Shown: positions 8,868 to 38,127 of the stretch, in pieces
Layout: each line of letters begins with the position of its first letter
How positions within the stretch are numbered: the first letter of the stretch is position 1
Assembly: GCA_007119175.1 (NCBI GenBank)
Contig: SKQC01000022.1
Span: forward strand, 1-46,163
Direction of reading: 5' to 3'
DNA: 46,163 bases
Source: Myxococcales bacterium
Lineage (GTDB): Bacteria > Myxococcota_A > Bradymonadia > Bradymonadales > Bradymonadaceae
Translations under genes and position numbers: made by a program
Notes under the pieces: model-generated
Database searches by the model: none
Seen by the model: the letters and a program-made list of their open reading frames with translations, nothing else
Told to the model about the DNA's origin: nothing

Positions 8868-10301
8868 TTATTGTTGGATAAATTCACTAATGCACAGCGA
8901 CGGGGTCACTCTGATGTTCCACACCTGCACCGTTTCGGCCTCCACAGACGCTGCCGCACCGCGCTCCAGACCCGCAGCCCACACCAGGTGATCATGGGCG
9001 TCGTATATGCAGGGCCAGCGCCAGCGAATATCGGCGTCCACGCCAGATGCTGAAAATAGCTTGGTGAGCTTTTGATGATAAATCTCATCACCGTCACTGC
9101 GGGTGAGCCGGGCGCCCGCCTCAAATCCGCCCAGCCTGAGGGGGCGGGCCAGCGCGTCGGCGTCGAAGCGCGCTTCCCAGCGGTGGTGGCCGGCCTCAGC
9201 ATCAGAACGCTCGAGGCCCCAGTGGATCTCGCTTCCGAAATAGGGCGCCTGGCCGCCATCGAATGGGGTTAGCAAGATGGGCTCTGCCTGACGCTCAAGC
9301 ACGTCTTTTCCGCCGCGACCTGTGGAGTGATAAAAGACAATACGGTCGCCCACAAAGGTGATAACGCAGCGAGATAAAGTGAGATGCCGAGGCGCCGCTG
9401 AGGGCGGCGCCGAGAGGTTGTTGTGGATTCGCCCGATCGCCGCGGCGTTAAGCGAGGGCTCCAGAATGTGAAATAGCCGAGCCACCGTCGCCGCGGGGGC
9501 TTTCGCCAGAGCTATGCGATCAAAGGCTCGGCAGCGAAGTCCCGGCCAGTCGATGGCCGCCTCATCGGCCAGTGCCCTCGCATAATGAGTCGCCGCGCGC
9601 CGCTCCGAGGCCAGGTGATCGATGGCGTCGAGCACGGCGCTTCGATGCTCATCATCGCCGCTCACGAGTTGGGGAACCAGATGATGGCGAATGCGGTTTC
9701 GCGAATAACCGTCTTCGATATTTGTCGGATCGGTCACAAACTCGACCCCCCGCGCGTCGGCATAGCTTTCAAGCTGGGCGCGAAAAATGCCGAGCACTGG
9801 GCGGATGATGCGCAAGTCGGCGCCGGGCAGGGGAAAAGGTGCCGTTAGCGCCATCGGTGCCAGACCGTCCAATCCGGTGCCTCGCCGCAGATTGAATAAA
9901 AATGTCTCGAACCGGTCGTCGCCGTGATGAGCAAAGGCGATATCGTCGATTCCCCGCTCGAAGGCGACGTCGGCGATCGCCGCCATTCTACGCTTTCGGG
10001 CCGCAGCCTGGCCGACATCTCGGCTCTTCCACGTCAGGCGCTCCGTGGCGATTGGAAGGCCCCGGCGCTTTGCTTCAGCGGTGCAGAAGTCGGCATCATT
10101 TCGGGAATCGTCGCGCAGATTGTGATCGATATGGACCAGCTCCAGTGGCGGTCCGCCCCGGTCGGTGTGGCGATGCAGAAGGTCGAGAAGTACCGACGAG
10201 TCCAGGCCGCCACTAAATGCGAGCAGAAGGCGGCGTTCCGGCGATAAGCCCGCTTTGCGCAGGCCGTCGGCGCAATGCGCGAGCAACTCGTCAGCGATCA
10301 T
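8868..10301 (-). CDS. tilS: tRNA(Ile)-lysidine synthase
   Basis: Converts C34 of the CAU-anticodon tRNA-Ile to lysidine so that it reads AUA; essential in nearly all bacteria. The 477-residue protein has the PP-loop ATPase motif SGGLDSS at residues 30-36, then VHIDHNLRDDS, AFAHHGDDRFETFLFNLRRGTG and GYSRNRIRHHLVP, all typical. The C-terminal part (about 380-477) is the TilS accessory domain with ARLTRSDG and KLTKLFSASG. The frame is open upstream to 10409, but the ATG at 10301 is the natural start. It overlaps the end of the preceding gene by 11 bp, which suggests translational coupling to the pseudoprotease-like protein. Confidence 0.95.
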   Translation of the reverse strand: MIADELLAHCADGLRKAGLSPERRLLLAFSGGLDSSVLLDLLHRHTDRGGPPLELVHIDHNLRDDSRNDADFCTAEAKRRGLPIATERLTWKSRDVGQAAARKRRMAAIADVAFERGIDDIAFAHHGDDRFETFLFNLRRGTGLDGLAPMALTAPFPLPGADLRIIRPVLGIFRAQLESYADARGVEFVTDPTNIEDGYSRNRIRHHLVPQLVSGDDEHRSAVLDAIDHLASERRAATHYARALADEAAIDWPGLRCRAFDRIALAKAPAATVARLFHILEPSLNAAAIGRIHNNLSAPPSAAPRHLTLSRCVITFVGDRIVFYHSTGRGGKDVLERQAEPILLTPFDGGQAPYFGSEIHWGLERSDAEAGHHRWEARFDADALARPLRLGGFEAGARLTRSDGDEIYHQKLTKLFSASGVDADIRWRWPCIYDAHDHLVWAAGLERGAAASVEAETVQVWNIRVTPSLCISEFIQQ

Positions 10302-11466
10302 CGTCGTCGCCGTCGCTTCCCTCCGCGCGTCCGGTTTGCATAAAGGCGTGAATCGCACCCGGCGGGATCGCCAGACTCTGTTTCGGGTCCTCCGGATAGC
10401 GCAGGGCATTAATCGCCAGAAGGCGGCCCTCTGCGGTCACGATTGGCGCGCCGAGGATGGCGCGAAAGTTGACGAGAAAATAAAAGGAGTATTCTCGCTC
10501 CAGATCGCTGGAATCATTGTAGCCCACAGGGGTCATAGTCTGTCCCACGGCGGGACTGAATCCGAAAATTGAGCCCGGCATCACGGCGTCCATATCATGC
10601 AAGATTAGTCCCGTTTCGGGGCCTGCAAATTCCTCGCCCTCGGCCGCAGCGAGGCGGGCCAGGTTGACGTGGCGATTCGACTCTTCAACCTGTAGCTCCA
10701 CCAGATCCGATCGGTGGCGCTCCAATAATCCGCGGCGATCGGCCATCACGTCGTCCAGTGGTTGGGGATCATGTCCACCCAATTCCAGTCCACCTTTAGA
10801 CAGGGCCTGGCTGACGTCGCCGTCGACGGCGTAAAGCTCGGAAGCGTCGCTGATCCAGTCTGCGGTGGATACCAGCTCTGGGTCGTCGCCGCTTCTCGAT
10901 GCCGAAATCCACAGGGCGTGGCCCCGGTAGATCATATCGGTCTGCCGATAATGCGACGGGGGCCTCTGAACGGCGATGATCTCCACTGTCGCCGCCGCGA
11001 CATGCGACGAGACGCGCTCTAACTGCGAGCCGCTCAGTGTCCGCGGAAGATTCGAGGCATCCATCCGAGACGGCGCCTGTGAGGGTAGACCGGGGCGAAA
11101 ATCGGGAATTTCATCGGGGCTAACCCGGGTCACTTCCACCTCGTCGAACGACTCGAAGGGGGAGTCGTGATCGCTTGCTGCGTCGTCGTCCTCGTCGTCA
11201 TCGAGCCCCGTCTGGTCGATGACGTCCTGGTCTTCATCGGATCGAGTCTGGTCGACCGTATCGGCCGGCACCACCCGCTGGGCCATTATCGGTGTGGTCG
11301 AAACGGTGACTACCAGGGCGACGACGACGGTCGTCGAGTAGAGCATCAGATGTCGACAAATCGATTTCACGAAGTCCACGAGGGAGCTGGGTGCGCGATT
11401 GGCTCGCTTTCGTCCCGGGCCAGGACGGCTTTGCGTTTGCCCATTTGGCACTGTACGATAGGCCAT
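10291..11466 (-). CDS. Exported trypsin-fold pseudoprotease-like protein
   Basis: Not assigned to a named family. A hydrophobic stretch (about residues 42-61, ending PIMAQ) looks like a signal peptide or anchor, followed by an acidic linker (75-110) and then a region built like an HtrA/trypsin domain. The segment RGHALWI aligns with the GSGFII strand, STADWI (about 200-205) with the LTAAHVV His loop, HVNLARL (about 267-272) with the DLALL Asp loop, and ILGAPIVTAEGRLLAIN (about 337-353) with the GNSGGPLV..GRVVGI Ser loop. In that alignment His, Asp and Ser become W204, N269 and L338, so it would be inactive. The start is uncertain: no Shine-Dalgarno precedes ATG 11466, and the long Arg-rich leader suggests a later GTG. 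It overlaps tilS by 11 bp. Confidence 0.6.
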   Translation of the reverse strand: MAYRTVPNGQTQSRPGPGRKRANRAPSSLVDFVKSICRHLMLYSTTVVVALVVTVSTTPIMAQRVVPADTVDQTRSDEDQDVIDQTGLDDDEDDDAASDHDSPFESFDEVEVTRVSPDEIPDFRPGLPSQAPSRMDASNLPRTLSGSQLERVSSHVAAATVEIIAVQRPPSHYRQTDMIYRGHALWISASRSGDDPELVSTADWISDASELYAVDGDVSQALSKGGLELGGHDPQPLDDVMADRRGLLERHRSDLVELQVEESNRHVNLARLAAAEGEEFAGPETGLILHDMDAVMPGSIFGFSPAVGQTMTPVGYNDSSDLEREYSFYFLVNFRAILGAPIVTAEGRLLAINALRYPEDPKQSLAIPPGAIHAFMQTGRAEGSDGDDDDR

Positions 11467-11732: not shown

Positions 11733-13091
11733 GTGGAATCCAAGAATCACAGCTTACGTGTAGCACTCGTCTGGAACGGGACCATTTATCAAGAAAAGGT
11801 CTTCTCGCAGACCAGCGAACCCATCATCACGATGGGCAACGGAGACGAGAACCTATTTTCTCTTCCGGCGACGGGGTTTCCCGATTCCCTGCAGGTATTT
11901 GAGCGCCAGGAAAAGGGGTATAAACTCAAATTTACCGACAAGGTAGAGCTGAGCCTGACCATCAATGACGAGGAATACGACCTCGAGGAATTGGTCGATG
12001 AGCGCCGCGCTATTAAGGTCGGCACCGTCGACACCGAAGATGGCAAGGCCACCGTCTACGAGATGAGCCTTCATTTCGGCGACTGGGGTGTCATCGATCT
12101 GGGCAAGATCAATATCTTTTTCCAGTTGATGGAAAAATCGGATGTCGTCGCCGGCCGCGGCCCCAAAGAGATGTTGGACGGGCCGCTGACCGTGGCGCTG
12201 ATTATCGCTCTGGTATTGCACCTGGGCTTTTTGATCGCCGCTTTTTTGCAGCCCCCTCAGCCCCATTTCGAGGACGTCGAATACCACGACCGCTTTGCTG
12301 ATTTCGCCGTCGACGATATCGAGGATGCCCTCGAGGAAGAAGACGACGAGGAAGAAGAAGATACGACCGCCGAAAAGGCCGGCGGCGAAGAGGGTGAGTT
12401 CGGCGACCCGGAAGAAGAAATTGAAGAGTCAGAGACCCCGGAGCTCGACGAGGAGATGGTCGACGAGATCGATGTCGAAGATCTGGGAATTCACGACGCC
12501 CTGACTGACGATGTCATCGGCGAAGGTCCACTCGATCAGCTCTTTGACTCCGACGGATTCGAAGCGGAGATCGCTGTGGCCATGGCCGGCGACGGTGATG
12601 CCCTTGAGATCGGACGCGGGCAGGGCGGAATGGGACTTCGCGGTGCCGGCGGGGGCGGTGGTGGCGAGGGCTACGGCCGCGTCGGTGGACTCGGTGAAGT
12701 GGATACGGGCGGCGGAACCGGTGCCGGTGGCGAAATCGGCAGTGGTGAGCAGCGCGAGGTATCACCGCAGGTCGATACGGGAACACCCTCGGTCGGCGAT
12801 TTCTGCGACCCCGCCGATATTCGACGCGTGGTCAACGCCCGCACCAACGCCATCCAGCACTGCTACGAGCGCCAGCTCCAGACCAATCCAGAACTCGCCG
12901 GTAGCCTCACAGCCAATTGGCGAATTGAGCTCGACGGCTCGGTCTCAAATGTCATGATGGTGGAATCGACGGTCAACAACGCCCAGGTCGAGGGCTGTAT
13001 CACCCGTGTTATCGAGCGAATGCGCTTTGAAGAGCCCGACGGTGGTATGTGCGATATCAACTATCCCTTCGTCTTCTCCGGACTTCAGTAA
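11733..13091 (+). CDS. GltG-like AgmX/PglI C-terminal domain protein
   Basis: Single-pass envelope protein of the AgmX/PglI family, best known from Myxococcus gliding (Glt) machinery. From the N-terminus (452 aa) it has an FHA-like beta-rich cytoplasmic domain (about 5-135) and one membrane helix (152-172). A very acidic periplasmic stretch (about 190-285) and a Gly-rich linker (about 300-340) follow. The TonB-C-like AgmX/PglI domain (about 360-452) contains CYERQL, GSLTANWRIELDGSV and a closing CDINYPFVF. This order is that described for GltG. The GTG at 11733 is chosen because GGAG precedes it; ATG 11652 in frame would add 27 residues of poor quality. It stands alone: a promoter upstream, a strong terminator downstream. 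The family is clear; a role in gliding is not shown. Confidence 0.78.
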   Translation: MESKNHSLRVALVWNGTIYQEKVFSQTSEPIITMGNGDENLFSLPATGFPDSLQVFERQEKGYKLKFTDKVELSLTINDEEYDLEELVDERRAIKVGTVDTEDGKATVYEMSLHFGDWGVIDLGKINIFFQLMEKSDVVAGRGPKEMLDGPLTVALIIALVLHLGFLIAAFLQPPQPHFEDVEYHDRFADFAVDDIEDALEEEDDEEEEDTTAEKAGGEEGEFGDPEEEIEESETPELDEEMVDEIDVEDLGIHDALTDDVIGEGPLDQLFDSDGFEAEIAVAMAGDGDALEIGRGQGGMGLRGAGGGGGGEGYGRVGGLGEVDTGGGTGAGGEIGSGEQREVSPQVDTGTPSVGDFCDPADIRRVVNARTNAIQHCYERQLQTNPELAGSLTANWRIELDGSVSNVMMVESTVNNAQVEGCITRVIERMRFEEPDGGMCDINYPFVFSGLQ

Positions 13092-13127
13092 CAATACGGG
13101 ATAGTCGAAGTCCCGAAGCATAAAAAA

Positions 13128-13161
13128 CCGGCGCGCTCCGTGAGGGCGCGCCGGTTTTTTT
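13128..13161. terminator. Bidirectional intrinsic terminator
   Basis: A perfect 9-bp stem CCGGCGCGC / GCGCGCCGG (13128-13136 and 13146-13154) is flanked by an A-run before and a T-run of seven after. It therefore works for both the plus-strand GltG-like gene (stop at 13091) and the minus-strand glutaredoxin (stop at 13184), which converge on it. Confidence 0.93.
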
Positions 13162-13183
13162 AATTCGTCTGACAGTGCTGAGA

Positions 13184-13450
13184 TCAATCGCCGTCGCGAC
13201 CCAGTAGTCGGTCGAGTTCGCCGCTTTTCCGAAGTGATTGCACGTCTGTAAAGCCGCCCACCGACTTTCCGTCGATGAAAATCTGGGGCACCGTTCGTTT
13301 GCCGCCGCTTTTTTCGACCATCACACTGCGGGCCTCGGCATCGTCGCTGACGTCGATCTCTTTGTATTCTACGCCCATCTCATCGAAGAGGCGCTCCGCC
13401 ATATCACAATAGGGACAATACTCGGTGCGGTAGATGACGACTTCTGCCAT
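13184..13450 (-). CDS. grxC: Glutaredoxin (dithiol, GrxC type)
   Basis: Small cytoplasmic thiol-disulfide oxidoreductase that uses glutathione. The 88-residue protein has the CPYC active site (Cys12 and Cys15), the TVP cis-proline motif (KRTVPQIFIDG) and the GGFTD glutathione-binding turn, in standard order and spacing. The ATG at 13450 has AGGAG eight bases upstream, which decides the start, although the frame stays open to 13648. It is monocistronic, ending at the shared terminator. The next 288 bp up to 13738 contain no supported gene. Confidence 0.95.
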   Translation of the reverse strand: MAEVVIYRTEYCPYCDMAERLFDEMGVEYKEIDVSDDAEARSVMVEKSGGKRTVPQIFIDGKSVGGFTDVQSLRKSGELDRLLGRDGD

Positions 13451-13738
13451 GGCTGAGACTCCTGTCGATACTTTTCTGTGGGAAACTCTGTTGCGATCGC
13501 CGCGAATAATGGACTGATCGTATGGCCACGATAGGTGCCGGTGTGACCCTCCGCAACCAAATAGTTGTACCGTGTCTCGTGTGCCGCAACCCCGGAGCAG
13601 GACTGGGCGCGTCCATCTGCGTCGATACGTCAGTGAATAATCTATCACGGACTGCGTCCGTGTAACCGGTGGGCCTTTGAGCGCTGAAGGGGGTAAAGAA
13701 TGCCGGTTAATGCAAATTGAGAAGAGGATGTAGAGATA

Positions 13739-14725
13739 ATGGCTATTAGATATGCGAAAATGACGATCGGTTTTGCCGCTGTGTCAATGGCACTCTGTGT
13801 GCTTGCCGGCTGTGGCGATAGCGACAACGGCAATGGCAACGACGACGCCCGGCTGACGGCAAATTTCGAGCAAATAAGCGCCGGCCCTTATCTGGCATGT
13901 GGTATTACCTCCAACCAGGAGATAGCCTGCTGGGGCGGTGAACATCCCACCGGGGAGTCCGCTCCGGACGGAGGATTTTCCATGGTCAGCAGCGGAGACT
14001 GGCATAGCTGTGCCATCGATCTGGACGGTCAGGTTGACTGCTGGGGCATCGACGAGGATGTGGATGCGGCGCACGATCACAACAAACACGGGCAGGCCAC
14101 GGATGTGCCATCCGGCGAATTCGACTCTATATCCGCCGGAGCCGCCCATAGCTGCGCGATAGAGACGTCGGGAGAGATTCACTGTTGGGGCCGGTGGGAT
14201 ACTCCACCGGAAGAGTCGTTTGAGCAGGTCAGCACCGGAATTCGCCACTCCTGCGGGATCGACGTCGACGGCAAGGTTCACTGTTGGGGCATCGATAACG
14301 AGCAGCTCGGCGATTACGGTCAGGTCACGGAGACACCGGAGGAGGGAACGTACCTGAAGGTGGCCGCCGGAGGAACTCATAGCTGTGCAATCACTGAAGA
14401 TCAGGAGCTTGAGTGCTGGGGAGAAGAAAGCGGCGGCTCACTCGACCATGGCCAGGTCCGACACACCCCGGAGGGCGAATATGTGGAGGTCAGCTCCGGG
14501 CGTCATCATAGTTGCGCCATCAGCACTGAGGGCGCAGTCCATTGCTGGGGCTCCGATGACGAGGGACAGGTCAGCGGTGCGCCATCCGGCACATTTACCC
14601 AGATCACCGTGAGCAATGCCTATTCCTGTGCGCTCGATGAGGCCGGGGCGATAGAGTGCTGGGGCATCGACCATGGCGGACTAGGGGATAATGGCCAGGT
14701 CACGGATGCCCCGCTAGCAGAGTAG
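13739..14725 (+). CDS. RCC1-repeat surface lipoprotein (seven repeats)
   Basis: Predicted lipoprotein: signal peptide with lipobox VLAGC (Cys25), then seven tandem repeats covering the rest of its 328 residues. Each repeat has the form 'F.qISaG..HSCAI...G.v.CWG', the RCC1/alpha-tubulin-suppressor-like pattern, and seven copies would close one seven-bladed beta-propeller. Each blade carries two cysteines at fixed places (SCAI and CWG), which suggests an internal disulfide per blade in the oxidising periplasm or surface. Such proteins are numerous in Myxococcota; the ligand is unknown. It stands between the glutaredoxin (divergent) and sppA (convergent), apparently as a single gene. AGAG lies just upstream of the ATG. 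Confidence 0.85.
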   Translation: MAIRYAKMTIGFAAVSMALCVLAGCGDSDNGNGNDDARLTANFEQISAGPYLACGITSNQEIACWGGEHPTGESAPDGGFSMVSSGDWHSCAIDLDGQVDCWGIDEDVDAAHDHNKHGQATDVPSGEFDSISAGAAHSCAIETSGEIHCWGRWDTPPEESFEQVSTGIRHSCGIDVDGKVHCWGIDNEQLGDYGQVTETPEEGTYLKVAAGGTHSCAITEDQELECWGEESGGSLDHGQVRHTPEGEYVEVSSGRHHSCAISTEGAVHCWGSDDEGQVSGAPSGTFTQITVSNAYSCALDEAGAIECWGIDHGGLGDNGQVTDAPLAE

Positions 14726-14750
14726 CGCTGATCGCTGTGTCGCTTCTGGC

Positions 14751-16577
14751 CTATCCCATCTCATCGTGCTGCGGTCGGTAGGGCATCAATGCCAGAAGGG
14801 GATCGCGTTGTACGAGTTTGTGGAGAAGCTGGGTATTGGCCATCGTCTCCGTCCACAATGACGGGGTCGTCGCCGACTGCCGGATCAATGTCGATAGATT
14901 GACGCTTCGGTGGGCGTGAAATTTGACGGGCGTTGACTCGGGAAGCTCCGGCTCGGCAAGAGAGCGGGCGATGGCGCAGGCGTCTTCAAAACTTCCCAGA
15001 TCGTCGACCAGGTGGCGGCGTGCGGCGTCGATGCCGGTATAGATGCGGCCGCGGGCGTAGCGGTGAAGCCGCCGGTGTGGAAGGTGGCGGGAGTCGCCGA
15101 CACGGCGCAGAAATTGTCGATAAAAAGAGCGGGCGTCGCGCCGTAGATTCTCCATTACCTCTTCGGTCAACGGCTCGGTGATGCTCTGGAAGGTGGACGT
15201 GTCGTGGCGATAAAATGCCTCAGATCCCACCTCTAATTTCTCCAGGGTACCGGGGAAGGAAAATTTCCCGGCCACCACGCCGATAGAACCGGTAATCGTC
15301 TCCGGCTGGCAGACGATCCGGTCGGCGGCGACGGCCAGATAATAGCCGCCGCTTCCGGCGATATCGCTGCAATAAGCGACGGTCGGTTTCTCGTAGCGCA
15401 GGCGGCGAATTCCGTCCCAGATAAGCTCGCTGGCCAGGGCGCTTCCGCCAGGGGAATTGATATGCAAGACCACGGCGCCGATGCGGCGATCGGCGGCGAG
15501 CTGACGCAGTACCGGCAATACCTCGGTGGGATCGATAGTGGCCAGCGACTGGCCGGGAATCTCCATCTCCGGCATTACGATCATGCCGCTTAAATCGAGG
15601 ACGGCGATCTGAGGGCGGGCCCGAAATAAGGGCGTCCAGGGCACTGGACCGGGGTGAGAGTCGGCGTATTTTACGGCGTCTTTGATGCTGACGTCGCGCC
15701 CTTCGTCCTCTTCTGCTGGGGCCGGGACGTCGTCGTCAGTGGTTTTTTTTGCCTCCTCGGTGCCGACGACGTGATCTGCCAGAGCTGGATTGTCGACGAA
15801 TTTCTCGCCCTTTTTGATCCACCGTGCCACGTGTCGGCGGTGGATTCGGGCGTCGATAAGCCCCCGGGCGGCCGCCTCTCGGTCGTCCAGTGGCATGCGC
15901 GAGAAGGTCTCGCTCAACAACTCTTTGTCGAGCTTGCGACTCTGGCAGATGCGCTCCTCGCGGATCTCGGAGAGGCCGTCGACGATTTGATTCATCATCA
16001 ATCGAAGCGGCGGCGTCGACTCGCGATGGATAAAGCGATGGGCGGCGCCCTTAAAGGGGCCGATATGGACGAATTGGGCGACCACCCCCAATTTTTCCAG
16101 CAAAGAGGCTGCAAAGAACTGTTCGAATCGCTGCCCAAACATGTAAAAACGTCCCCCTGGCGTCATCAGCACGTCGTCGGCCGCCACGGCCAGGTCGTAG
16201 TCGCGGCTGTGGATGGTGTGGCTGTGAAAGACGATCGACTTGCCGGCCTCGCGCAAACGCTCGATCAGAGCGCGCAGATCGGCGGTCCGGCCGGCGCCGT
16301 GGAGCAGGTGATCGGCGGTGACCACCACTCCTTCGATGCGTGGGTCGTCGGCCACCACGTCGATATGCTCTCGCAGTTCGACGTAGGAGACCTTATCCTG
16401 AAAGTAGGTCGCCAGTCCCGCCGGCGGGCCGAAGCGAATTCGTTTCGGAAGACGCAGTCGGACCCACTTTCGCTTTTTTCGCGTCAAAAAATGACCGAGT
16501 CGAAAAAAGAACGAACGAATGACGTAGGACAGCAATTTGAACAAATTCCAGATCAGTGCGAATGGCGCACGAAGCAT
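14751..16577 (-). CDS. sppA: Signal peptide peptidase SppA, long (two-domain) form
   Basis: Membrane-bound serine peptidase that digests released signal peptides (family S49). The 608-residue length matches the E. coli long form (618). An N-terminal anchor (about 5-28) is followed by a first domain with the general-base lysine in GPFKGAAHRFI (Lys176). A lower-complexity acidic linker (about 272-295) leads to the second domain with VLHINSPGGS and the nucleophile serine in AGSGGYYLA (Ser409). Both catalytic residues are present, so it should be active. The frame is open to 16715, but MLRAPFALIW at 16577 is the sensible start. That ATG shares its CATG with the candidate start of the divergent lipoprotein gene, so one of the two starts is probably wrong. 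Confidence 0.92.
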   Translation of the reverse strand: MLRAPFALIWNLFKLLSYVIRSFFFRLGHFLTRKKRKWVRLRLPKRIRFGPPAGLATYFQDKVSYVELREHIDVVADDPRIEGVVVTADHLLHGAGRTADLRALIERLREAGKSIVFHSHTIHSRDYDLAVAADDVLMTPGGRFYMFGQRFEQFFAASLLEKLGVVAQFVHIGPFKGAAHRFIHRESTPPLRLMMNQIVDGLSEIREERICQSRKLDKELLSETFSRMPLDDREAAARGLIDARIHRRHVARWIKKGEKFVDNPALADHVVGTEEAKKTTDDDVPAPAEEDEGRDVSIKDAVKYADSHPGPVPWTPLFRARPQIAVLDLSGMIVMPEMEIPGQSLATIDPTEVLPVLRQLAADRRIGAVVLHINSPGGSALASELIWDGIRRLRYEKPTVAYCSDIAGSGGYYLAVAADRIVCQPETITGSIGVVAGKFSFPGTLEKLEVGSEAFYRHDTSTFQSITEPLTEEVMENLRRDARSFYRQFLRRVGDSRHLPHRRLHRYARGRIYTGIDAARRHLVDDLGSFEDACAIARSLAEPELPESTPVKFHAHRSVNLSTLIRQSATTPSLWTETMANTQLLHKLVQRDPLLALMPYRPQHDEMG

Positions 16578-16911
16578 GGCTTGCCCGAAGATAAAGAGGC
16601 GTGAATTTTGGGACGAGCAGCGTAAGGGCGTTCTGCGGTGGTGTCGAGCAGCGAGGGTTTTGCTGATCGCCGCGATCGCCATATCGTCGATAGTTCTTTC
16701 GGGATGTGTGACCACTGCGGAGTGCGACGACCCGGTGGGATGCCCCGACGGAGAGGTCTGCTTTCAGCGCCAGTGCAAACAGCCCTGCGGGGAGGACGGA
16801 CAATGTGAAGCGGGCGAGTCCTGCGTGCCCTGCTATGAAGACGACGACGATGGCACCGGTCCGGGGCGATGCCTCGAGGTCGAGGCCGACGTCTGTGTCA
16901 GTGACGACTAA
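16576..16911 (+). CDS. Small Cys-rich lipoprotein
   Basis: Predicted lipoprotein: hydrophobic stretch RVLLIAAIAISSIVLSGC with a clear lipobox, then about 67 residues containing ten cysteines. The pattern includes CPDGEVC and CGEDGQC-x5-C, like the Cys-rich knots common in Myxococcota surface proteins. The start is doubtful: ATG 16576 gives a 43-residue leader, long for a signal peptide, and coincides with the sppA start on the other strand. The true start may be a non-ATG codon nearer 16640. It ends 14 bp before xseA, so it could be cotranscribed with xseAB. A related CxxDGQC motif occurs in the DUF192 lipoprotein at 34.6 kb. Confidence 0.65.
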   Translation: MACPKIKRREFWDEQRKGVLRWCRAARVLLIAAIAISSIVLSGCVTTAECDDPVGCPDGEVCFQRQCKQPCGEDGQCEAGESCVPCYEDDDDGTGPGRCLEVEADVCVSDD

Positions 16912-16925
16912 CGATGGAGGGGCCC

Positions 16926-18686
16926 ATGGCCCGGGTGATCGATATCGAGGAGAAAAAAGAGCGAATCAAGATCGACTTTCCCTACGAGCGGGAGTTGGTC
17001 GACGTCGTTCGCACCCTTCCCGATCGGTGGTTCGACCGCACGAGCAAATGCTGGTTCGTCCCCTTGCAGCATCTCAACTACGTCATTGATCGCCTCGACG
17101 GCTATCATTTTAAATTTTCTCCGCGACTGCGCCGATTTCGCGCCGACGGCGATCACGACCAGCAGGTCAAACCGGCGGTCCCGGAGGTGCCCGAGGGCAC
17201 CTGGACTATCAGTCGGCTCAACCAGGCCGCTCGCATGGCGCTTCAGAAGCGCTTTGACGCTCCGGTCTGGATCGTCGGCGAACTTCAGGATTTCGACAAA
17301 AATCGGGCCAGTCGCTATCGGACATTTTTCTTCGATCTCGTAGAGCGCCCATTCGCCGGGGCCACGGAGGTGGCAAAGCTCAAAGCCGTGTTATTTGAGC
17401 GCCATCGAAATAAGATCTTCAAGAAACTCGGCGACAATAACCTCGAACTCGGCGACGGAATGGCCGTCCGATTGAGCGGGAAGGTCGATTTATACGCCCG
17501 AAACGGCCGCTACCAGATCATCGTCGAGGATATCGATCCCGCCTATACGGCCGGCGAAATCGAGCTGAATCGAGAGCGGGTCTTTCAGGCCCTAAAAAAG
17601 AAGGGGATCGAGGCCGATAATCGGCGACGACCGTGGCCCGATTGCCCGCTTCGCGTGGGGTTAATCACCAGTTTTGAGAGCGACGCCTATAACGATTTCG
17701 TTCATCAACTCCGGGAGAGCGGCCGCGGATTTTCCATCGCCGCCCACGACGCCAACGTTCAGGGCGTTCACACGGAACGCTCCGTGCTTCGCGCATTAAA
17801 GTATTTCGAAACCAATGCCGATGATTTCGACGTGGTTGCCATTATTCGCGGTGGTGGATCGCGCTCGGAGCTCGCCTATTTCGACACGGAGGCCATCGGT
17901 GAGGCGGTCTGCCGACATCCGCTCAAGATTGTCTGCGGCGTCGGGCATCAACGCGATATCTGTCTGCTCGATCTGATTGCGGAGTCCACAAAGACACCCA
18001 CGGCGGCCGCCGAACAGGTGGTGCGTCGGGTCGACGGCTTCGTCGATGATCTTCATCAAACCTACGAATCGATCGCCAGGCTGGGGGCGAAAAAAGTCGC
18101 CGATTGTCGCCAGGGGCTGGTGCGCCAGGGGGCGAGTTTAGAGCGGCAGGTCATCAGCAAATTGGGAGTCGAAAGGCAGCGTCAGGAGCGAATGGAGGCC
18201 GCCGTCGGTGAGGTGGGGCGGCGGCTTTTGCAGCGACAGCGCCGCGTGGTCGACGACGCGCAGCGAGCTCTTTATAGAAGTGGGCAGCGCTGTGCCGAGC
18301 GGCGCCGCCGGGCCGTCGATCGGGCCACCCGAGAGCTGTCAATGCGCCGGTTGTCGCGCCGCTTTGAGCGGCGTCGACAGGCGCTTGAGAATTTGGTCGA
18401 GGAGTTGAGAAAATCGACGCGTCGCGATACCAATTTTGCGCGACAGCGTCTGGAATTTCTGGAGGAGCAACTCACTCTGGTCGACCCACGGCGAATTTTG
18501 GAGCGAGGATTCGCTGTGGTTCGCGACGAGCGGGGAGTGATTCGCTCGCGCGACCAGATCGCCGTAGGCCATGACTTTGATGTCCTACTTGGAGATGGTG
18601 TACTCCGGGCCAGGCGCGTCGACGATGAGCAACCACAGCAACAACAGGCGAGCGGCGATGCTGCCCTTGCCGAATCTGTGGATTGA
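16926..18686 (+). CDS. xseA: Exodeoxyribonuclease VII large subunit with an extra N-terminal HARP-like domain
   Basis: Catalytic subunit of exonuclease VII, which degrades single-stranded DNA from both ends. The 586-residue protein starts at ATG 16926 after a strong GGAGGGG. Residues about 10-75 (DFPYERELVDVVRTLPDRWF, then KCWFVP) resemble the HARP-type module of SMARCAL1-like helicases and some recombinases; standard XseA lacks this. The OB-fold follows (about 91-190: WTISRLNQAARMAL, VWIVGEL). The XseA core has AIIRGGGS and a GHQRD...TPTAAAE motif where most XseA have GHETD...APTPSAAAE. The end is a long basic coiled coil and a final beta domain (RILERGFAVVRDE). xseB follows 17 bp later. Activity is likely but the changed motif needs checking. 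Confidence 0.9.
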   Translation: MARVIDIEEKKERIKIDFPYERELVDVVRTLPDRWFDRTSKCWFVPLQHLNYVIDRLDGYHFKFSPRLRRFRADGDHDQQVKPAVPEVPEGTWTISRLNQAARMALQKRFDAPVWIVGELQDFDKNRASRYRTFFFDLVERPFAGATEVAKLKAVLFERHRNKIFKKLGDNNLELGDGMAVRLSGKVDLYARNGRYQIIVEDIDPAYTAGEIELNRERVFQALKKKGIEADNRRRPWPDCPLRVGLITSFESDAYNDFVHQLRESGRGFSIAAHDANVQGVHTERSVLRALKYFETNADDFDVVAIIRGGGSRSELAYFDTEAIGEAVCRHPLKIVCGVGHQRDICLLDLIAESTKTPTAAAEQVVRRVDGFVDDLHQTYESIARLGAKKVADCRQGLVRQGASLERQVISKLGVERQRQERMEAAVGEVGRRLLQRQRRVVDDAQRALYRSGQRCAERRRRAVDRATRELSMRRLSRRFERRRQALENLVEELRKSTRRDTNFARQRLEFLEEQLTLVDPRRILERGFAVVRDERGVIRSRDQIAVGHDFDVLLGDGVLRARRVDDEQPQQQQASGDAALAESVD

Positions 18687-18703
18687 TACGACGAGAGGTG
18701 ATG

Positions 18704-18934
18704 ATGAGCGACCAACCGGTAGGCGACGAGCAAGAAGAGCTCAAATACGGCGAGGCCCTTCAAGAACTCAATGACATATTGGAGGCCATCGAAGAAGATC
18801 GCTTCGATCTCGACGAATTGGGCGACCAGGTGGGCCGGGCTGCCGAGTTGATCCGGCTGTGTCGAGACAAGATCGACGCCACAGAGCTTCAGATCCAGTC
18901 GATTATCGACGAGCTCGACGACGAGGATCGATAG
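18704..18934 (+). CDS. xseB: Exodeoxyribonuclease VII small subunit
   Basis: Small helical subunit that binds the XseA coiled coil. The 76-residue acidic protein has the family core YGEALQELNDILEAIE near residues 15-30 and LDELGDQVGRAAELIRLCRDK. The usual small-subunit length is 65-85. ATG 18704 is chosen because GAGAGG lies five bases upstream; an in-frame TTG at 18683 is less likely. It follows xseA with a 17-bp gap, so the two are made together. Confidence 0.93.
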   Translation: MSDQPVGDEQEELKYGEALQELNDILEAIEEDRFDLDELGDQVGRAAELIRLCRDKIDATELQIQSIIDELDDEDR

Positions 18935-18955
18935 ATTCCGCGTGATATTTGCGCG

Positions 18956-19501
18956 TTAGAGCACGTCGACCCGGAAGTTTGCATAGACCTTAAAGCGCAC
19001 CTCGCTGGACGGAGCGCTTCCGGATGCACTGGTCCGAAGCCGCAGGCCTTCTTCAGCGTAGGGCTTTAAATCCAGTTCGTCGTCGATATCAAAGACGAAT
19101 TTATCCACGTCTCGGGGAACCGGATCGCGCCAAGCGAGTTCTGCTTCCGGGAGATCACTGCCGGATTCCCGCGACGAGACGCGGATTGTGATATCGTCGA
19201 TAAAATCAAAGGAGTCCTTCTCCGTATTCTCGGTCAGCTCGAAGTATAGTTCGCGCAGTTTGACTGATTTCGCTCCACTGGCGTCCTGCTTGGCCAATTC
19301 CTCCTCGAGGTCGATTTCCATCGGAATTCGAGTCGGGAAGACATCGCCCAGGGGAGTGGTGGCCAGTGGTGAGGCCTCGACGACGATTTCCTCGCTTTCC
19401 TCGTTGAAGCTAAAGGCGCCAAACCCCGCACAGGCAGCGATGATGAGTGCCACGGCGAGGACGGCGATTGCGCCGAAGGGCTGGTGGTTGCTGGTGTTCA
19501 C
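18956..19501 (-). CDS. Small acidic exported protein, possibly a lipoprotein
   Basis: Function not recognised. The 181-residue product has an N-terminal hydrophobic stretch (about residues 10-30) with a possible lipobox IAAC (Cys24), then an acidic, beta-predicted domain without cysteines or known motifs (for example LYFELTEN and a closing VRFKVYANFRVDVL). The GTG start at 19501 has AGGAG seven bases upstream, which supports translation. It converges with xseB and is divergent from the GltJ-like gene, 231 bp away. A secreted or anchored envelope protein is all that can be said. Confidence 0.6.
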   Translation of the reverse strand: MNTSNHQPFGAIAVLAVALIIAACAGFGAFSFNEESEEIVVEASPLATTPLGDVFPTRIPMEIDLEEELAKQDASGAKSVKLRELYFELTENTEKDSFDFIDDITIRVSSRESGSDLPEAELAWRDPVPRDVDKFVFDIDDELDLKPYAEEGLRLRTSASGSAPSSEVRFKVYANFRVDVL

Positions 19502-19652
19502 GATATTTCTCCTGTGATTCGTGCGAATTGTCTCGCACCTGCAGTTGCGATTGTCATCTCGAACGGACTATGACGAACACCTCGCCGGATTCGTCATCAT
19601 CAAAACATTATGCAAGGCGCATTCCGAAGGGGCCTGCAGTCGATCTAATTGC

Positions 19653-19681
19653 TTGTCATGGGCAAGGTCGGGTTGTAAAGT
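19653..19681 (+). promoter_or_regulatory. Sigma-70-like promoter upstream of the GltJ-like gene
   Basis: TTGTCA at 19653-19658 and TAAAGT at 19676-19681 with a 17-bp spacer, about 50 bp upstream of the ATG at 19733. The -35 is one base from consensus; the -10 is weaker. It is the only good pair in this 231-bp divergent gap. Confidence 0.4.
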
Positions 19682-19732
19682 CTTGCTCGATCGAATGGAG
19701 GCGTTCCCGGTAAGTGAGTGAGGCGCGGGGAA

Positions 19733-22420
19733 ATGAAATTCTATTGTGATAACTGCCAGACCAAGTACTCCATTGCGGATGAAAAGGTCAGGGGGAAGGT
19801 CCTTAAAGTGCGGTGTAAGAGCTGCAATCACGTCGTGACCGTCAGCGGCTCGCAGATCGGAACCAATCCACGGGCCAGGGCGGCCCAGTCTGCTCCATCT
19901 GCCCCCGGGGCGCAGTCGCCGCGCCGGGGTGGAGCTCCGGGACCGCCACCGCCGCCACAGTGGCATTACTCGGTCAACGGTCAGTCTTTTGGCCCCGTTC
20001 CGCGCCCGGTTCTCGAAAAAAAGCTGGCCAGCGGAGAGCTCGGCGAGGCGGCGTATGTCTGGAATGACACTTTCAGCAATTGGAAACCGGTTCAACAGGT
20101 TGAGACTTTCGCAAAGGCGCTGAAGCGAGCCCGTTCGCCGGGACCACCGCGTCGGCCTCCATCTAGAGGACCCCAGCGGCAAAGTCCCGGTCCGCCAGCG
20201 CAGAAAGAACCGAAACCAAAGCCGAAACCGAAACCAAAGCCTGCGACCAATCGCAAGCCGACATCGAAGCCACAACCGAAGCCACAACCGAAGCCACAAC
20301 CGAAGCCACAACCGAAGCCACAACCGAAGCCACAACCGAAGCCACAACCGAAGCCACAACCGAAGCCACAACCGGAATCGGTGCCCGAGAAGACGGAGCC
20401 CGATGCGGAGCAGCCGACGCCGGGGCCGGAGGATTCTCCGCTACCGGCGCCCGAGCGGTCCGGGGAGGGGAGAAAATCGAGGAGTTCGTCACTTCCGGCG
20501 CTGGATAAGCCGAAAGCAGACAGTGACGTGCCGAGCGCGACTGCTCCAGAGGATTCTGCGCCAGCGGCGGCCGACCGGCCAGTCGAGGGGAGAAAACCGA
20601 GGAGTTCGTCGCTTCCGGCGCTGGATAAGCCGAAAGCAGACAGTGACGTGCCGAGCGCGACTGCTCCAGAGGATTCTGCGCCAGCGGCGGCCGACCGGCC
20701 AGTCGAGGGGAGAAAATCGAGGAGTTCGTCACTTCCGGCGCTGGATAAGTCGAAAGCAGACAGTGACGTGCCGAGCGCGACAGCCCCGGCGGTCGAAGAT
20801 TCGACAGCATCGCCAGAGTCGACGACGCCCGAGGAGTTTCCCGCTGAAGAGACAGCCCTCGACGATGACCTGCCGGACGCGGTCAAGGCGATGCAAGAAA
20901 AGGCGCGACAGCCCGGCACGCAAAAGGGCGATGAGGGTTCGCAACAAGATCGCCTTCAGGCATTGCGAGACCGTCTTCAGCTAGATTCCAAACCCGATGA
21001 CGGGGCGCCGCCCCCGAAGGCGGCCGGGGACGAGGCGGTAGAGCCCAGTGCCGGGGCACCGCCGCGTGTCGACATGCAGGCGCCGGCCAAAGCAGAGCCC
21101 GACGATTTCGGAGTACCGGGATCGGAATTACCCGAGCCACACCAGGCTGAACTCGACGCCCCGGCAAAGCCGGAAGTCAATGATATTGGCCATGCAGAGA
21201 CTTTGTTGGACTCTTCGGAGTCGGCTCCGGACAAGCCGTGGGAGGAGCCGTCGGGGGCCGATGATCAATCGCAGCATGACGGGCTATTTTCCACCCCTTC
21301 AGACAGCGGCGACGACTCTGAATGGCCTTATCCCTCGCCGGGCGGCACTTCCCTCGACGGGATTCCAGATGAACCCAAATCGGAAGATGCCGTTCCATTT
21401 TTTCCAGATGCCCCGAAATTGGGAGATGGAGCAGAGTCTCCAACGGAGCAGTCCTCATCGTCGCTCGAGGAGATGACGGGCAGTCTCTTGATCCAGATCA
21501 ACGAGATTAAAAGCGACGGGCGAAAACGCGCTGTTTTAGCTGGCGTCGGTGCGCTGGCGGCGATAGCGCTCCTGGGGGCGGTGGTTGCCGTCGGCTGGTC
21601 ACAATTGGGCGTAGAAGACGATGAGGTTGAAGAGGAGCGAGTGCGAATGGATCACGTCGGTGCCGAACCGGTATTTCGCGAATATACGGCCGACGAATTG
21701 GCCCGGATCAGCGAAACAATGGTCCTGGAGGAGGAATTGGTCGTCTCCCGCGAGGATGGTCGCGCTGCCGTTGAGCGCGAGGAGCGACGAGAGCGCGGCG
21801 GAAGCCAGGGGGGTACCGAGACAGACGAATCGCCGAGAATGCCCAGCGTCAATCCCGACTCCTTTCGCCATGAAGCACGGGCAGATGAACCGGAGGCCGA
21901 TCGCGTCGAAGAGGAAGCAGGCGCCAGTGGGTCTCGTTTTGCGCGCCCCGAGTTTGGTGGAAGTGGCCCCTCCGAGGAGGCCGGAATGGCATCCGCTGAT
22001 AATGGCGACGACGGCGCTGAAGAGGACAGCGAAGTAGACAGTCGCTTTGAGGCCATGGCTGCCCTCCACAGCGATACGGAGCGTGGCATTCACGGGGCAG
22101 ATGATAATCCCGATCTAGGCCGACAGATGCAGGATGGACTCAGCGGCGATGATATCGCCCGCGGTATTCAGTCCGTTATGGAGAGCGTGGGGATATGCCG
22201 GGAGCGGCATATTTACCGCGGTGGGACTCTAGAAGAAGACCAACTGCGGGTCAGTCTCACCGTATTGCCCGACGGCGACGTGGGACAGTTTAAGATGGAA
22301 CCGGGTACCCTGGCGGATACCGACTTCGGCCGCTGTATGCAGTCTCATACCGGTCGCTGGCCGTTTCCCCGCTTCCGGGGCGACCCCGTCGAAATTCAGG
22401 CTCCTTTTGCGCTGCAATAG
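19733..22420 (+). CDS. GltJ-like protein: zinc ribbon, GYF domain, Pro-rich region, TM, AgmX/PglI C-terminus
   Basis: Large single-pass envelope protein (895 aa) with the layout of Myxococcus GltJ (AgmX). Residues 1-36 form an MJ0042-type zinc ribbon (Cys5, Cys8, Cys28, Cys31). Residues about 76-126 are a GYF_2 domain (WHYSVNGQSFGPV). A long disordered region follows, with nine KPQP repeats and 40-residue repeats. A membrane helix is at about 598-620, then a charged periplasmic stretch and a C-terminal AgmX/PglI domain (about 800-895: CRERHIYRGG, LRVSLTVLPDGDV, CMQSH). In Myxococcus the zinc ribbon and GYF part contacts MglA and controls focal-adhesion assembly; that role here is inference. 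ATG 19733 is preferred over GTG 19718. It ends 6 bp from the convergent neighbour. Confidence 0.82.
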   Translation: MKFYCDNCQTKYSIADEKVRGKVLKVRCKSCNHVVTVSGSQIGTNPRARAAQSAPSAPGAQSPRRGGAPGPPPPPQWHYSVNGQSFGPVPRPVLEKKLASGELGEAAYVWNDTFSNWKPVQQVETFAKALKRARSPGPPRRPPSRGPQRQSPGPPAQKEPKPKPKPKPKPATNRKPTSKPQPKPQPKPQPKPQPKPQPKPQPKPQPKPQPKPQPESVPEKTEPDAEQPTPGPEDSPLPAPERSGEGRKSRSSSLPALDKPKADSDVPSATAPEDSAPAAADRPVEGRKPRSSSLPALDKPKADSDVPSATAPEDSAPAAADRPVEGRKSRSSSLPALDKSKADSDVPSATAPAVEDSTASPESTTPEEFPAEETALDDDLPDAVKAMQEKARQPGTQKGDEGSQQDRLQALRDRLQLDSKPDDGAPPPKAAGDEAVEPSAGAPPRVDMQAPAKAEPDDFGVPGSELPEPHQAELDAPAKPEVNDIGHAETLLDSSESAPDKPWEEPSGADDQSQHDGLFSTPSDSGDDSEWPYPSPGGTSLDGIPDEPKSEDAVPFFPDAPKLGDGAESPTEQSSSSLEEMTGSLLIQINEIKSDGRKRAVLAGVGALAAIALLGAVVAVGWSQLGVEDDEVEEERVRMDHVGAEPVFREYTADELARISETMVLEEELVVSREDGRAAVEREERRERGGSQGGTETDESPRMPSVNPDSFRHEARADEPEADRVEEEAGASGSRFARPEFGGSGPSEEAGMASADNGDDGAEEDSEVDSRFEAMAALHSDTERGIHGADDNPDLGRQMQDGLSGDDIARGIQSVMESVGICRERHIYRGGTLEEDQLRVSLTVLPDGDVGQFKMEPGTLADTDFGRCMQSHTGRWPFPRFRGDPVEIQAPFALQ
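20267..20374 (+). repeat. 12-bp tandem repeat, nine perfect copies (KPQP)
   Basis: The unit AAGCCACAACCG is repeated nine times without a single mismatch inside the GltJ-like gene, encoding KPQP x9. It follows a shorter KPKP run. Perfect identity at third codon positions points to recent slippage, so copy number may vary between strains without shifting the frame. Confidence 0.95.
20465..20781 (+). repeat. 120-bp in-frame tandem repeat, about 2.6 copies
   Basis: Copies begin at 20465, 20585 and 20705; the third stops at about 20781. Their second halves (20521-20580 and 20641-20700) are identical and the rest differs at only a few bases. The unit encodes a 40-residue segment with SRSSSLPALDKPKADSD and a Pro/Ala-rich end, in the disordered part of the GltJ-like protein. 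Near-identity indicates recent duplication. Confidence 0.95.
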
Positions 22421-34600: not shown

Positions 34601-35212
34601 ATGGCTCATCGCTTATTGACACTGTTTTTGGCCACCTTCGTTGTGACCATCCTTGTGGGATGTAATCAATCGTCGGTGGCCCCCGAGGAGTCGGATACCG
34701 ACAGTGATGATGCAGAATCGGAGTGTGCCGTCGACGGACAATGCGACTCTTATAATCGATGCATCGACGGGGACTGCGCCACGCCGCCGGCAATGAGCGG
34801 TGCCGCCACGGCAGACACACCGGTGGCCCGAATCTATGACGGCGACGAGGTAGTGGCCCGATTTTATCTCGAATTGGCGATCAGCGCCGACGAGCAGCGC
34901 CAGGGGTTGATGTATCGGCCGTCGATGCTCGATGACTGGGGAATGTTATTTATCTACGACGACGATCAGGAATTGTCGTTCTGGATGAAAAATACGCTGA
35001 TTCCGCTGGATATGATCTTCGTCGACGCCACCGGCGAGGTTGTCGGCGTGGTCCACGAGGCAGAACCGGAGACGACAACGCCGCGAAATGTCGGTGAGCC
35101 GGCGCGATACGTGCTCGAGATCAATGGAGGCCTGGCCGCGAAGGCCGGAATCGACCGGGGCACAACGATGAGTCTTGAGCATGTGGAAGAGAGCCATCAG
35201 CCCACTCAATGA
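34601..35212 (+). CDS. DUF192 lipoprotein with Cys-rich linker
   Basis: Predicted lipoprotein (203 aa): signal peptide and lipobox ILVGC (Cys21). Then comes a short acidic linker with four cysteines (CAVDGQC-x5-C-x4-C, about residues 42-58), and a full DUF192 domain (about 75-195). The last shows the family signature GLMYRPSM, GMLFIY, FWMKNTLIPLDMIFVD and YVLEINGG. DUF192 proteins are exported and of unknown function. Its last 32 bp overlap the start of the next gene in another frame, which implies translational coupling. The Cys-rich linker resembles the small lipoprotein at 16.6 kb. Confidence 0.88.
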   Translation: MAHRLLTLFLATFVVTILVGCNQSSVAPEESDTDSDDAESECAVDGQCDSYNRCIDGDCATPPAMSGAATADTPVARIYDGDEVVARFYLELAISADEQRQGLMYRPSMLDDWGMLFIYDDDQELSFWMKNTLIPLDMIFVDATGEVVGVVHEAEPETTTPRNVGEPARYVLEINGGLAAKAGIDRGTTMSLEHVEESHQPTQ

Positions 35213-37481
35213 ATTTTTTCCCACCAGGATCCATCTGGTGGCACTGGTGCTGGTCAATGCCAGCGCTGTGGCGATGGCGTTTGTCCCGTTATTCAATCTG
35301 GTGGGATACGAGTCAGCGGCTTTCTACGGGGTCGTGCTTGGTGTTCTGGCGACGGGGCTAACGGTCTACTCGGTCAAAAGTGGGGCCGTGGATGCCCCCC
35401 TGGATGAGTCCCGGCGGCGAAGGCCAGCCGATGACTTCGGGCGCCTTGCGCTGGTTCATTTAACGCTGGCTCTGGGACCGCTGGCAATTTTGACGGTCAA
35501 CGGATTTCGGGTGCTCAATTGTGATTGGGTGGCCGGGTTTGCGTTCTGGGCGCTGATTGTGGGGCCGGCGGTTTTGATCGGCCAGGCTGCGGCCTGGCTG
35601 GCGCTGTCGCTGGTGCCGGAAAAAAAGGGAGTGGCCTGGCTATTGGCGTTCGCCTTTCCCGTCGGTGACGCGCTGGCGCTGATCTATCATCTGGCCACGG
35701 AGCCGCCGATTATCGGTCACCAGTGGTTTTTGGGCTATTTCGGGGGCTCGATCTATGACGAGGCGATGGCCGTGCCGCCCAGTTTGATCGCCTATCGTGT
35801 ATTGCACCTGTTGGCGATTATCGCCGTCGTCGCCGCGATACAGGCGGTCTTCGAACTCAACCGCGGTCGGCTTCCGCGGTGGACGATGGTTCTGGTTTTT
35901 GGGGCGAGTCTGTCGTTTGTCGTCGGATTTGCCGAGCGCGACCGCTTCGGTATCTCCATCGATCGCGTCCATATCGCCGAAGAACTCGGCGGAAAGGTAG
36001 AAAGTGAACATTTCGTGATTTACTACCCGGAGACGCGCCGGAGTCTGCAGCGACTAGAGGAGATGGTCGCCGATCACGAATTTCGCTACGACCAATTGCG
36101 CCGGTTTTTCGGAACCGATCCGGTTGCCGAGAGCGGAGAAAAAGTGGCCAGCTTCGTATACGCCGATAGGGACTCCAAGGGGAAATTGATGGGGGCTCGC
36201 CACACGATGGTGGCCAAATTGTGGCTTCACGAGATGCATATTCTGTGGAGTGGAACCGGCGACCATATGCTGACTCATGAGCTGGCTCATATCTTTACCG
36301 AGCCCTTTGGAGCAGGGCCACTGAGCTTGAGTATGCAGCGCGGCGTCGGCGTCAATATGGGGCTGGTCGAGGGCATCGCCTCGGCGGCGGAGTGGCGCTC
36401 CCAGGAATTGACCCTGCACGAGGCGTCGGCGGCGATGCGCAGACTCGATCTTTCGCCCGATCTGCGCACTATTTTGGGGGCCTCGGGGTTTTGGACCGAG
36501 GCCTCGGGGCCGGCGTATACGGCGATGGGATCCTTTGTGCGCTATCTGGTGGATACCCGGGGGATCGAGGCGTTTAAAAAAGCCTATCCGAGCGGCGATT
36601 TTTATGGGGCGTACGGTGTGGAGGTCGAATCACTGATCGAGGAGTGGGAGGAATTTGTCGATGAGTTGGCATTGACCGAACGCCAGAAGTCGGTGGCTCG
36701 CCATCGCTATGACCGCACGAGCATTTTCGGCAAGGTCTGCGCCCGGGCGCTTGCCGATATTCGCGAGGAAGCTCGGCGTGCGGCGTCGAGCGGGGCCTAC
36801 GGCAAGGCCAGAGCGAGTTATGAGCAATACCTCGACGACGATCCCCATCACGTCGCTGTGCGTCGATCTTATGCCCGTATCCTCGGCGAACTCGATGAGG
36901 TCGATGAGGCGTTGGCGGTGCTTGAGGACCTGCTCAGCGCCGATCTGACGACGGTGGAGACTGCGCAGGTATTTGAGTTGCGCGGCGATGTGCTGTGGTC
37001 TGAGGGGAATGACTCGGCGGCGGCCGACGCCTACGACGATGGACTAAGGCTTGCTGTGCCCGTCCACCAGGAGCGCTCTCTGCAGATGAAAAAGCGCCTC
37101 GCCGAGCGCGGTGACGATCGCGGACGGCAGATCCTCGTCGATCGCAGAAGCGAGGCGGAAGTGATGTATCAGATGATGAGCTGGCGGCGGGATGCGCCGG
37201 AGGATCCGATACCGGCCTATTTCGTGGGCCGCAGATTGTGGCAGGAGAGAAATTATTCTGAAGCCATCTCCCATCTCGAGGATAGTCGCCACAGGCTGGA
37301 CGCGGCGGTGCTGGACGCGGAAGTGTCGCTGATGCTAGGGCAGAGCTACTACTTTGAGGGTCATCTCGACGCATCGGATTCGATCTGGAAAAAATTGGCC
37401 GAATCACGGATCACGAGGTATCGAGAAACAGCCCGGGAGTGGGCGACTCGTATCGAGTGGGCCCGTCGGAATAGGCAGTGA
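35181..37481 (+). CDS. Membrane gluzincin (peptidase MA family) with TPR tail
   Basis: A 766-residue protein with three parts. About seven membrane helices occupy residues 15-250. A soluble metallopeptidase domain follows, with zinc motif HELAH (about 366-370) and a downstream glutamate in LVEGIASAAEW (about 396). TPR-like repeats fill the rest (GKARASYEQYLDDDPHHVAVR, EALAVLEDLLSADL). HExxH followed some 25 residues later by E is the gluzincin (peptidase_MA) layout. The ATG at 35181 lies inside the DUF192 gene, 32 bp before its stop; a TTG two codons earlier is possible. A second gluzincin with TPRs sits two genes downstream. Substrate unknown; probably a membrane-bound periplasmic or cytoplasmic protease. 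Confidence 0.78.
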   Translation: MWKRAISPLNEFFPTRIHLVALVLVNASAVAMAFVPLFNLVGYESAAFYGVVLGVLATGLTVYSVKSGAVDAPLDESRRRRPADDFGRLALVHLTLALGPLAILTVNGFRVLNCDWVAGFAFWALIVGPAVLIGQAAAWLALSLVPEKKGVAWLLAFAFPVGDALALIYHLATEPPIIGHQWFLGYFGGSIYDEAMAVPPSLIAYRVLHLLAIIAVVAAIQAVFELNRGRLPRWTMVLVFGASLSFVVGFAERDRFGISIDRVHIAEELGGKVESEHFVIYYPETRRSLQRLEEMVADHEFRYDQLRRFFGTDPVAESGEKVASFVYADRDSKGKLMGARHTMVAKLWLHEMHILWSGTGDHMLTHELAHIFTEPFGAGPLSLSMQRGVGVNMGLVEGIASAAEWRSQELTLHEASAAMRRLDLSPDLRTILGASGFWTEASGPAYTAMGSFVRYLVDTRGIEAFKKAYPSGDFYGAYGVEVESLIEEWEEFVDELALTERQKSVARHRYDRTSIFGKVCARALADIREEARRAASSGAYGKARASYEQYLDDDPHHVAVRRSYARILGELDEVDEALAVLEDLLSADLTTVETAQVFELRGDVLWSEGNDSAAADAYDDGLRLAVPVHQERSLQMKKRLAERGDDRGRQILVDRRSEAEVMYQMMSWRRDAPEDPIPAYFVGRRLWQERNYSEAISHLEDSRHRLDAAVLDAEVSLMLGQSYYFEGHLDASDSIWKKLAESRITRYRETAREWATRIEWARRNRQ

Positions 37482-37563
37482 CTCCGAGGCGGTTATGAGC
37501 ATCGTTGTTGGTCATCCCCCTCAATTGCGTCACGGAGCAAGTGTGAAACGTCAGGAGCAATCA

Positions 37564-38097: not shown

Positions 38098-38127
38098 CCT
38101 GCGTTTGCCTGGCGGGAGGATGGAGCG

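Follow-up and report, generated by a model that had tools for sequence, protein, structure and literature searches.

In Myxococcus, GltG and GltJ are modular TolA/TonB-like proteins, and GltG binds AglR (PMC5349195), while a single AglRQS motor is common to Glt and Nfs through GltG/NfsG (PMC3858216). In TonB and TolA the motor contact is a conserved histidine of the transmembrane (TM) helix (PMC12204202). The Bradymonadales are gliding and predatory bacteria (PMC7188933). The stretch of DNA analysed here (the window; 46,163 bp) is a whole contig, C395, of a Bradymonadales assembly of 5.37 Mb in 494 contigs (86% complete), and genome comparisons took in 26 genomes of the order. According to the ORF list it carries a GltG-like and a GltJ-like gene (hereafter GltG' and GltJ') on the same (+) strand, separated by a gap of 6.6 kb and located where the first-pass annotation had placed them, without glt neighbours as it had stated. 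The genes between and around the two encode a glutaredoxin, an RCC1-like lipoprotein, SppA, XseA and a small lipoprotein, all unrelated to glt. The ORFs of the window that were scanned included no further recognisable glt, agl or mgl gene; GltG' is not encoded with gltC/D/E/F, and no motor genes lie beside GltG' or GltJ' in the window, the AglRQS-like trio of this genome being located on another contig (C175). Two TPR proteins at 35175-40881 were considered as GltE/GltD and rejected, their TPR scores being generic and weak (GltE 18.9 bits against a cut-off of 225). Judged from its sequence features, the pair represents second copies of GltG and GltJ of putative function, a real variant of parts of the Myxococcus gliding machine.

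GltG' resembles GltG/PglI of Myxococcus xanthus (NCBIfam equivalog NF033760) and its paralogue NfsG in having a cytoplasmic beta domain, one TM helix, an acidic periplasmic arm and an AgmX/PglI tail; it differs in lacking a canonical FHA domain, in lying outside a glt cluster and in branching in another clade than the FHA-GltG of this genome. The ORF list starts the gene at ATG 11652 (479 aa), whereas the orthologues begin at GTG 11733 (VESKNHSLRVALVWNG), which gives 452 aa and coincides exactly with the start proposed in the first-pass annotation. Both the TM helix and the AgmX/PglI tail that characterise GltG are present, the latter scoring 104–107.9 bits against NF033768 (AgmX/PglI tail, NCBIfam; cut-off 40). 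The score against NF033760 (157.4 bits) stays below the cut-off of 650, as does that of the FHA-GltG on contig C457 (332.6 bits), and the alignment of GltG' covers only model positions 201–646, that is, outside the canonical FHA part; its N-terminal domain aligns to the region that follows the canonical FHA domain of GltG. The FHA-like domain that had been proposed for GltG' thus holds at the level of fold and fails at the level of sequence: the best PDB match of residues 5–135 in Foldseek is the FHA domain 1mzk (prob 0.98, target TM 0.57, E 0.038, which is suggestive but short of significance), IRF IAD domains rank next, and Pfam gives no FHA match. As Pfam finds no FHA domain, "FHA-like" is used here as a statement about fold and phosphopeptide binding is not claimed. 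The models of GltG' and GltJ' are of low confidence overall (mean pLDDT 45 and 54, respectively); the GltG' tail, whose model confidence is too low for fold comparison, is assigned by NF033768, and searching the PDB with a profile of the GltG' alignment gave no match. In the TM helix, A159 and H163 are invariant in alignment A1, and the histidine of the (S/A/G)xxxH pattern is present in every GltG' orthologue read. The FHA-GltG of contig C457 and the TolA of this genome have SxxxH. GltG' shows the (S/A)xxxH pattern of TonB/TolA, and GltJ' does not. In close relatives the GltG-like gene is tandemly duplicated (L059:8512-9852 and 10028-11380; also G018 and G020).

GltJ' follows GltJ/AgmX of M. 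xanthus (NF033761; 7zok, 7z3c) in the sequence of its parts, with a zinc ribbon, a GYF domain, a Pro-rich region, a TM helix and an AgmX tail, all of them anticipated by the first-pass annotation. It differs from that protein in its long Lys/Pro linker and in lying outside a glt cluster, the glt-linked copy of this genome being the GltJ of contig C25. The start is most likely ATG 19733 (MKFYCDN), the ORF list giving GTG 19718 (900 aa). The N-terminal zinc ribbon and GYF domain expected of GltJ match the solved M. xanthus domains in phmmer searches (7zok, 5.7e-9, and 7z3c, 0.012, respectively), and GltJ' also has the TM helix and AgmX tail of GltJ, with 45–50.1 bits against NF033768 (cut-off 40). 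The tails of both proteins hence belong to the AgmX/PglI family, as had been claimed. Neither GltJ' (53.0 bits) nor the GltJ of contig C25 (142.4 bits) reaches the cut-off of 450 of the GltJ equivalog NF033761. The GltJ' tail is modelled as alpha-beta-beta-alpha-beta (pLDDT about 75–86) and nearly all of its best PDB matches in Foldseek are TonB/TolA C-terminal domains (best E 7e-4). The fold check that the first-pass annotation had proposed for the two tails was therefore positive for GltJ', the GltG' model being too poor to compare. A histidine in the TM helix is absent from the full-length GltJ' orthologues read. Repeats of the Lys/Pro dipeptide type occur in the linker at 20207-20700 of the window, as does a repeated block (GRKSRSSSLPALDKPKADSDVPSATAPEDSAPAAADRPVE). 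Both window proteins are similar to TonB/TolA in several respects, namely an inner-membrane anchor with the motor-contact histidine (GltG'), a flexible periplasmic arm and a TonB C-terminal fold (GltJ' tail), and differ from them by their large N-terminal cytoplasmic modules and by the lack of adjoining motor genes.

Coordinates of the two genes and of their domains in the window
Feature	Position	Strand	Description and evidence
GltG' gene	11733..13091	+	452 aa, GTG start; ORF; NF033760, NF033768; orthologues in 25/26 genomes of the order
FHA-like (degenerate) beta-sandwich domain of GltG', residues 5-135, cytoplasmic	11745..12137	+	AlphaFold pLDDT about 63-82; Foldseek
TM helix of GltG', residues 151-172, AxxxH (A159, H163)	12183..12248	+	model helix; alignment A1
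Acidic, then glycine-rich periplasmic linker of GltG'	12315..12767	+	sequence; low pLDDT, no fold
AgmX/PglI (TonB-C-like) tail of GltG'	12807..13079	+	NF033768, 107.9 bits
GltJ' gene	19733..22420	+	895 aa, ATG start; ORF, domains; full-length orthologues confined to the order
Zinc ribbon (CxxC...CxxC) of GltJ'	19733..19834	+	Zn_ribbon_4 2.5e-12; PDB 7zok 5.7e-9
GYF_2 domain of GltJ'	19961..20107	+	GYF_2 1.3e-11; PDB 7z3c 0.012
TM helix of GltJ', without His	21518..21601	+	model helix
AgmX/PglI tail of GltJ', TonB C-terminal fold	22142..22414	+	NF033768; model; Foldseek

Elsewhere in this genome, where 14 AgmX-tail matches fall in 13 ORFs, most core glt/agl/mgl genes were found on other contigs. 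One of them (C457) harbors gltC, a GltD-like TPR protein, gltE, cglF (= gltF), an FHA-bearing gltG and a large GltI-like TPR protein, and another (C25) harbors gltC, gltD, gltE and a zinc ribbon-GYF-GltJ; the names GltD and GltI are based here on position and TPR content, with no model match. In addition to the AglRQS-like trio, MglA is split across two contig ends, with MglB adjoining one half (the MglA query was an approximate sequence, for which strong matches alone were counted). An AglRQS-like motor, MglA/MglB, gltC-D-E-F-G and gltJ thus coexist in one genome. The first-pass annotation had taken the two isolated genes as a possible reduced or repurposed gliding machine, to be abandoned if the genome held no AglRQS motor and no MglA. 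Both are present, so that this objection falls away, and the idea of a machine made of these two proteins draws some encouragement from the lack of any other recognised glt gene within the 46 kb window; the "reduced" part, however, is contradicted by the two gltC-D-E clusters, the FHA-gltG, cglF, a further gltJ, the AglRQS-like trio and MglA/MglB. The "repurposed" part may still apply: the two genes are old supernumerary paralogues that lack an adjacent motor, and relatives of GltG' elsewhere in the phylum adjoin an AglRQS-type motor and an MCE lipid transporter. As a whole, a two-protein gliding machine is considered highly improbable. The window genes are paralogues that come in addition to a dispersed Agl-Glt-type system, the inner-membrane and periplasmic core of which this genome encodes. 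A MotA-like gene on contig C416 was rejected as another Agl motor, its best match being flagellar PomA/MotA. At the end of contig C461 (L121), a third gltC/gltD-like pair lies together with a gene for an AgmX-tail protein, and MtsD-like proteins are encoded further along.

Of the 26 genomes of the order, 25 encode a full-length GltG' orthologue, and the relatives in further families of the class sit at the same locus, next to tilS and ftsH; the gene order glmM-cdaR-cdaA-folP-ftsH-tilS-GltG' is shared by the order and by families f3 and f4. Full-length GltJ' orthologues, on the other hand, were found only within the order, with mainly tail-level matches outside it. In most genomes of the order, zinc ribbon-GYF proteins are encoded at two loci, of which one is glt-linked and the other is that of the window. 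GltG' and GltJ' lie 5–8 kb apart on the same strand and in the same order in 13 of the 14 genomes that have both on one contig, the exception being G002 with 67 kb between them. Conservation across the whole order excludes a chance pairing; the linkage is nevertheless weak evidence for joint function, because ftsH, tilS, grx, sppA and xseA have been kept there too, and the notion that it proves such a function was dropped since the microsynteny of the entire region is conserved. In a tree of 55 GltG-type proteins, the window orthologues (family f1 rows, UFBoot 100), their class relatives and families f12, f16 and f35-38 group in a single clade (97/94) that excludes both the FHA-GltG proteins and a third, motor-linked Bradymonadales GltG, which adjoins its own gltD-gltE-aglRQS. 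GltG' and GltJ' are ancient, vertically kept extra paralogues at a stable locus in Bradymonadales.

One possible role for such paralogues is that of extra subunits of a single dispersed Agl-Glt complex, together with the products of contigs C457 and C25. All components coexist order-wide, MglA is nearly universal (25/26 genomes), most genomes have two GltJ-like loci, GltJ' has retained its zinc ribbon and GYF domain, and gliding is known in the order (PMC7188933). Nonetheless, long and well-supported branches part GltG' from FHA-GltG, and GltG' also occurs throughout the class and in further families of the phylum, in many of which the adjoining stretch that was read contains no gltC-D-E. Additionally, motility in Bradymonadales has mostly been put down to type IV pili (PMC11509652, PMC7460792), although the order as a whole harbors a dispersed Agl-Glt-like system plus the conserved extra GltG/GltJ paralogues. 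Participation in one common complex is rated as unlikely.

The closest motor-linked relatives of GltG' belong to another myxococcotan family (f16) and point in a different direction. Seven of its genomes (L094, L102-L107) carry the same-strand cluster MlaF-MlaE-MlaE-MlaF-MCE-GltG'-AglR(-AglQ-AglS) without gltC-D-E, where AglQ and AglS come after AglR wherever the contig allows (L102 stops after AglR); in one of these genomes Pfam assigned MlaE (222 bits), MlaD (62), MotA_ExbB (97) and ExbD (76 and 52). The MCE-GltG'-AglR cluster suggests that envelope lipid transport, and not gliding, may be the task served, and a literature search for an MCE-AglRQS link found none. On this basis GltG', with or without GltJ', might be a stand-alone transducer for outer membrane lipid transport or envelope upkeep, unrelated to gliding: the f16 proteins fall in the clade of the window gene, and GltG' lies among housekeeping genes across the class. 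On the other hand, no MCE genes were recognised near GltG' in Bradymonadales, the f16 relatives have no TM histidine and bear a further N-terminal domain with several TM segments, the stretch read around those of f12, f36 and f37 shows no MCE genes (f36 being cut by a contig end), and FHA-GltG and GltJ, with the same tails, are gliding proteins in Myxococcus. This alternative is also improbable, albeit the least so of those weighed here. Its narrower form, in which the GltG' lineage would be a PMF transducer for MCE/Mla-type lipid transport and the Bradymonadales copy a motor-sharing stand-alone with a GltJ partner, is more doubtful than either a general envelope role or a single common complex; if true, lipid transport would be a new role for AglRQS-GltG-type motors as far as the literature found. 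The motor-contact histidine and the MCE-linked relatives offer a testable handle on the sharing of one ion-driven motor type among envelope tasks.

The reading favored here, with somewhat better than even confidence, is that GltG' acts as a motor-sharing transducer and that this provides an extra surface-transport or envelope task, not a reduced gliding machine. GltG' itself is most likely an inner-membrane force transducer of the TonB/TolA kind. Its degenerate FHA-like domain would reside in the cytoplasm, the TonB/TolA-type histidine of its single TM helix would dock on a TolQR/ExbBD/AglRQS motor, the long acidic and glycine-rich arm would span the periplasm, and the TonB-C-like tail would touch an outer-membrane or periplasmic partner. 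GltG' probably relies on a TolQR/AglRQS-type motor from another locus, by analogy with the AglRQS motor common to Glt and Nfs in Myxococcus. The first candidate would be the AglRQS-like trio on contig C175, TolQR or ExbBD being possible as well; since the TM histidine is absent in GltG paralogues that adjoin AglRQS (the third Bradymonadales GltG and the f16 relatives), that of GltG' may point to TolQR or ExbBD and not to AglRQS. GltJ' would combine its cytoplasmic modules (zinc ribbon and GYF) with the same kind of tail and, as it lacks the motor-contact histidine, is more likely to connect the periplasm with a regulator in the cytoplasm than to bind a motor. GltG' and GltJ' may act together; this joint action and the motor use and partner of GltG' are inferred, while the domains, the paralogy, the conservation, the histidine motif and the other glt, agl and mgl genes of the genome are observed.

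Some features of the AglRQS-like loci were observed in passing. An MtsD/CglD-like protein (L033:7502-9679) is encoded directly upstream of the trio, likewise in G001 and G002. The AglQ-like subunits of Bradymonadales (L033:10561-11118, L164, L167, L152-L157) have an asparagine at the ExbD/TolR aspartate position (PVMNLF), whereas the AglS-like subunits retain the aspartate (SLLDMF) and the f16 pairs have it in both. Directly downstream of AglRQS lies a Ser/Thr kinase gene (L033:12094-14939; L164, L167; L008), and in complete relatives the long ORF at this place ends in an AgmX tail and has a TM helix with (S/A)xxxH, so that its product is a possible kinase-force transducer.
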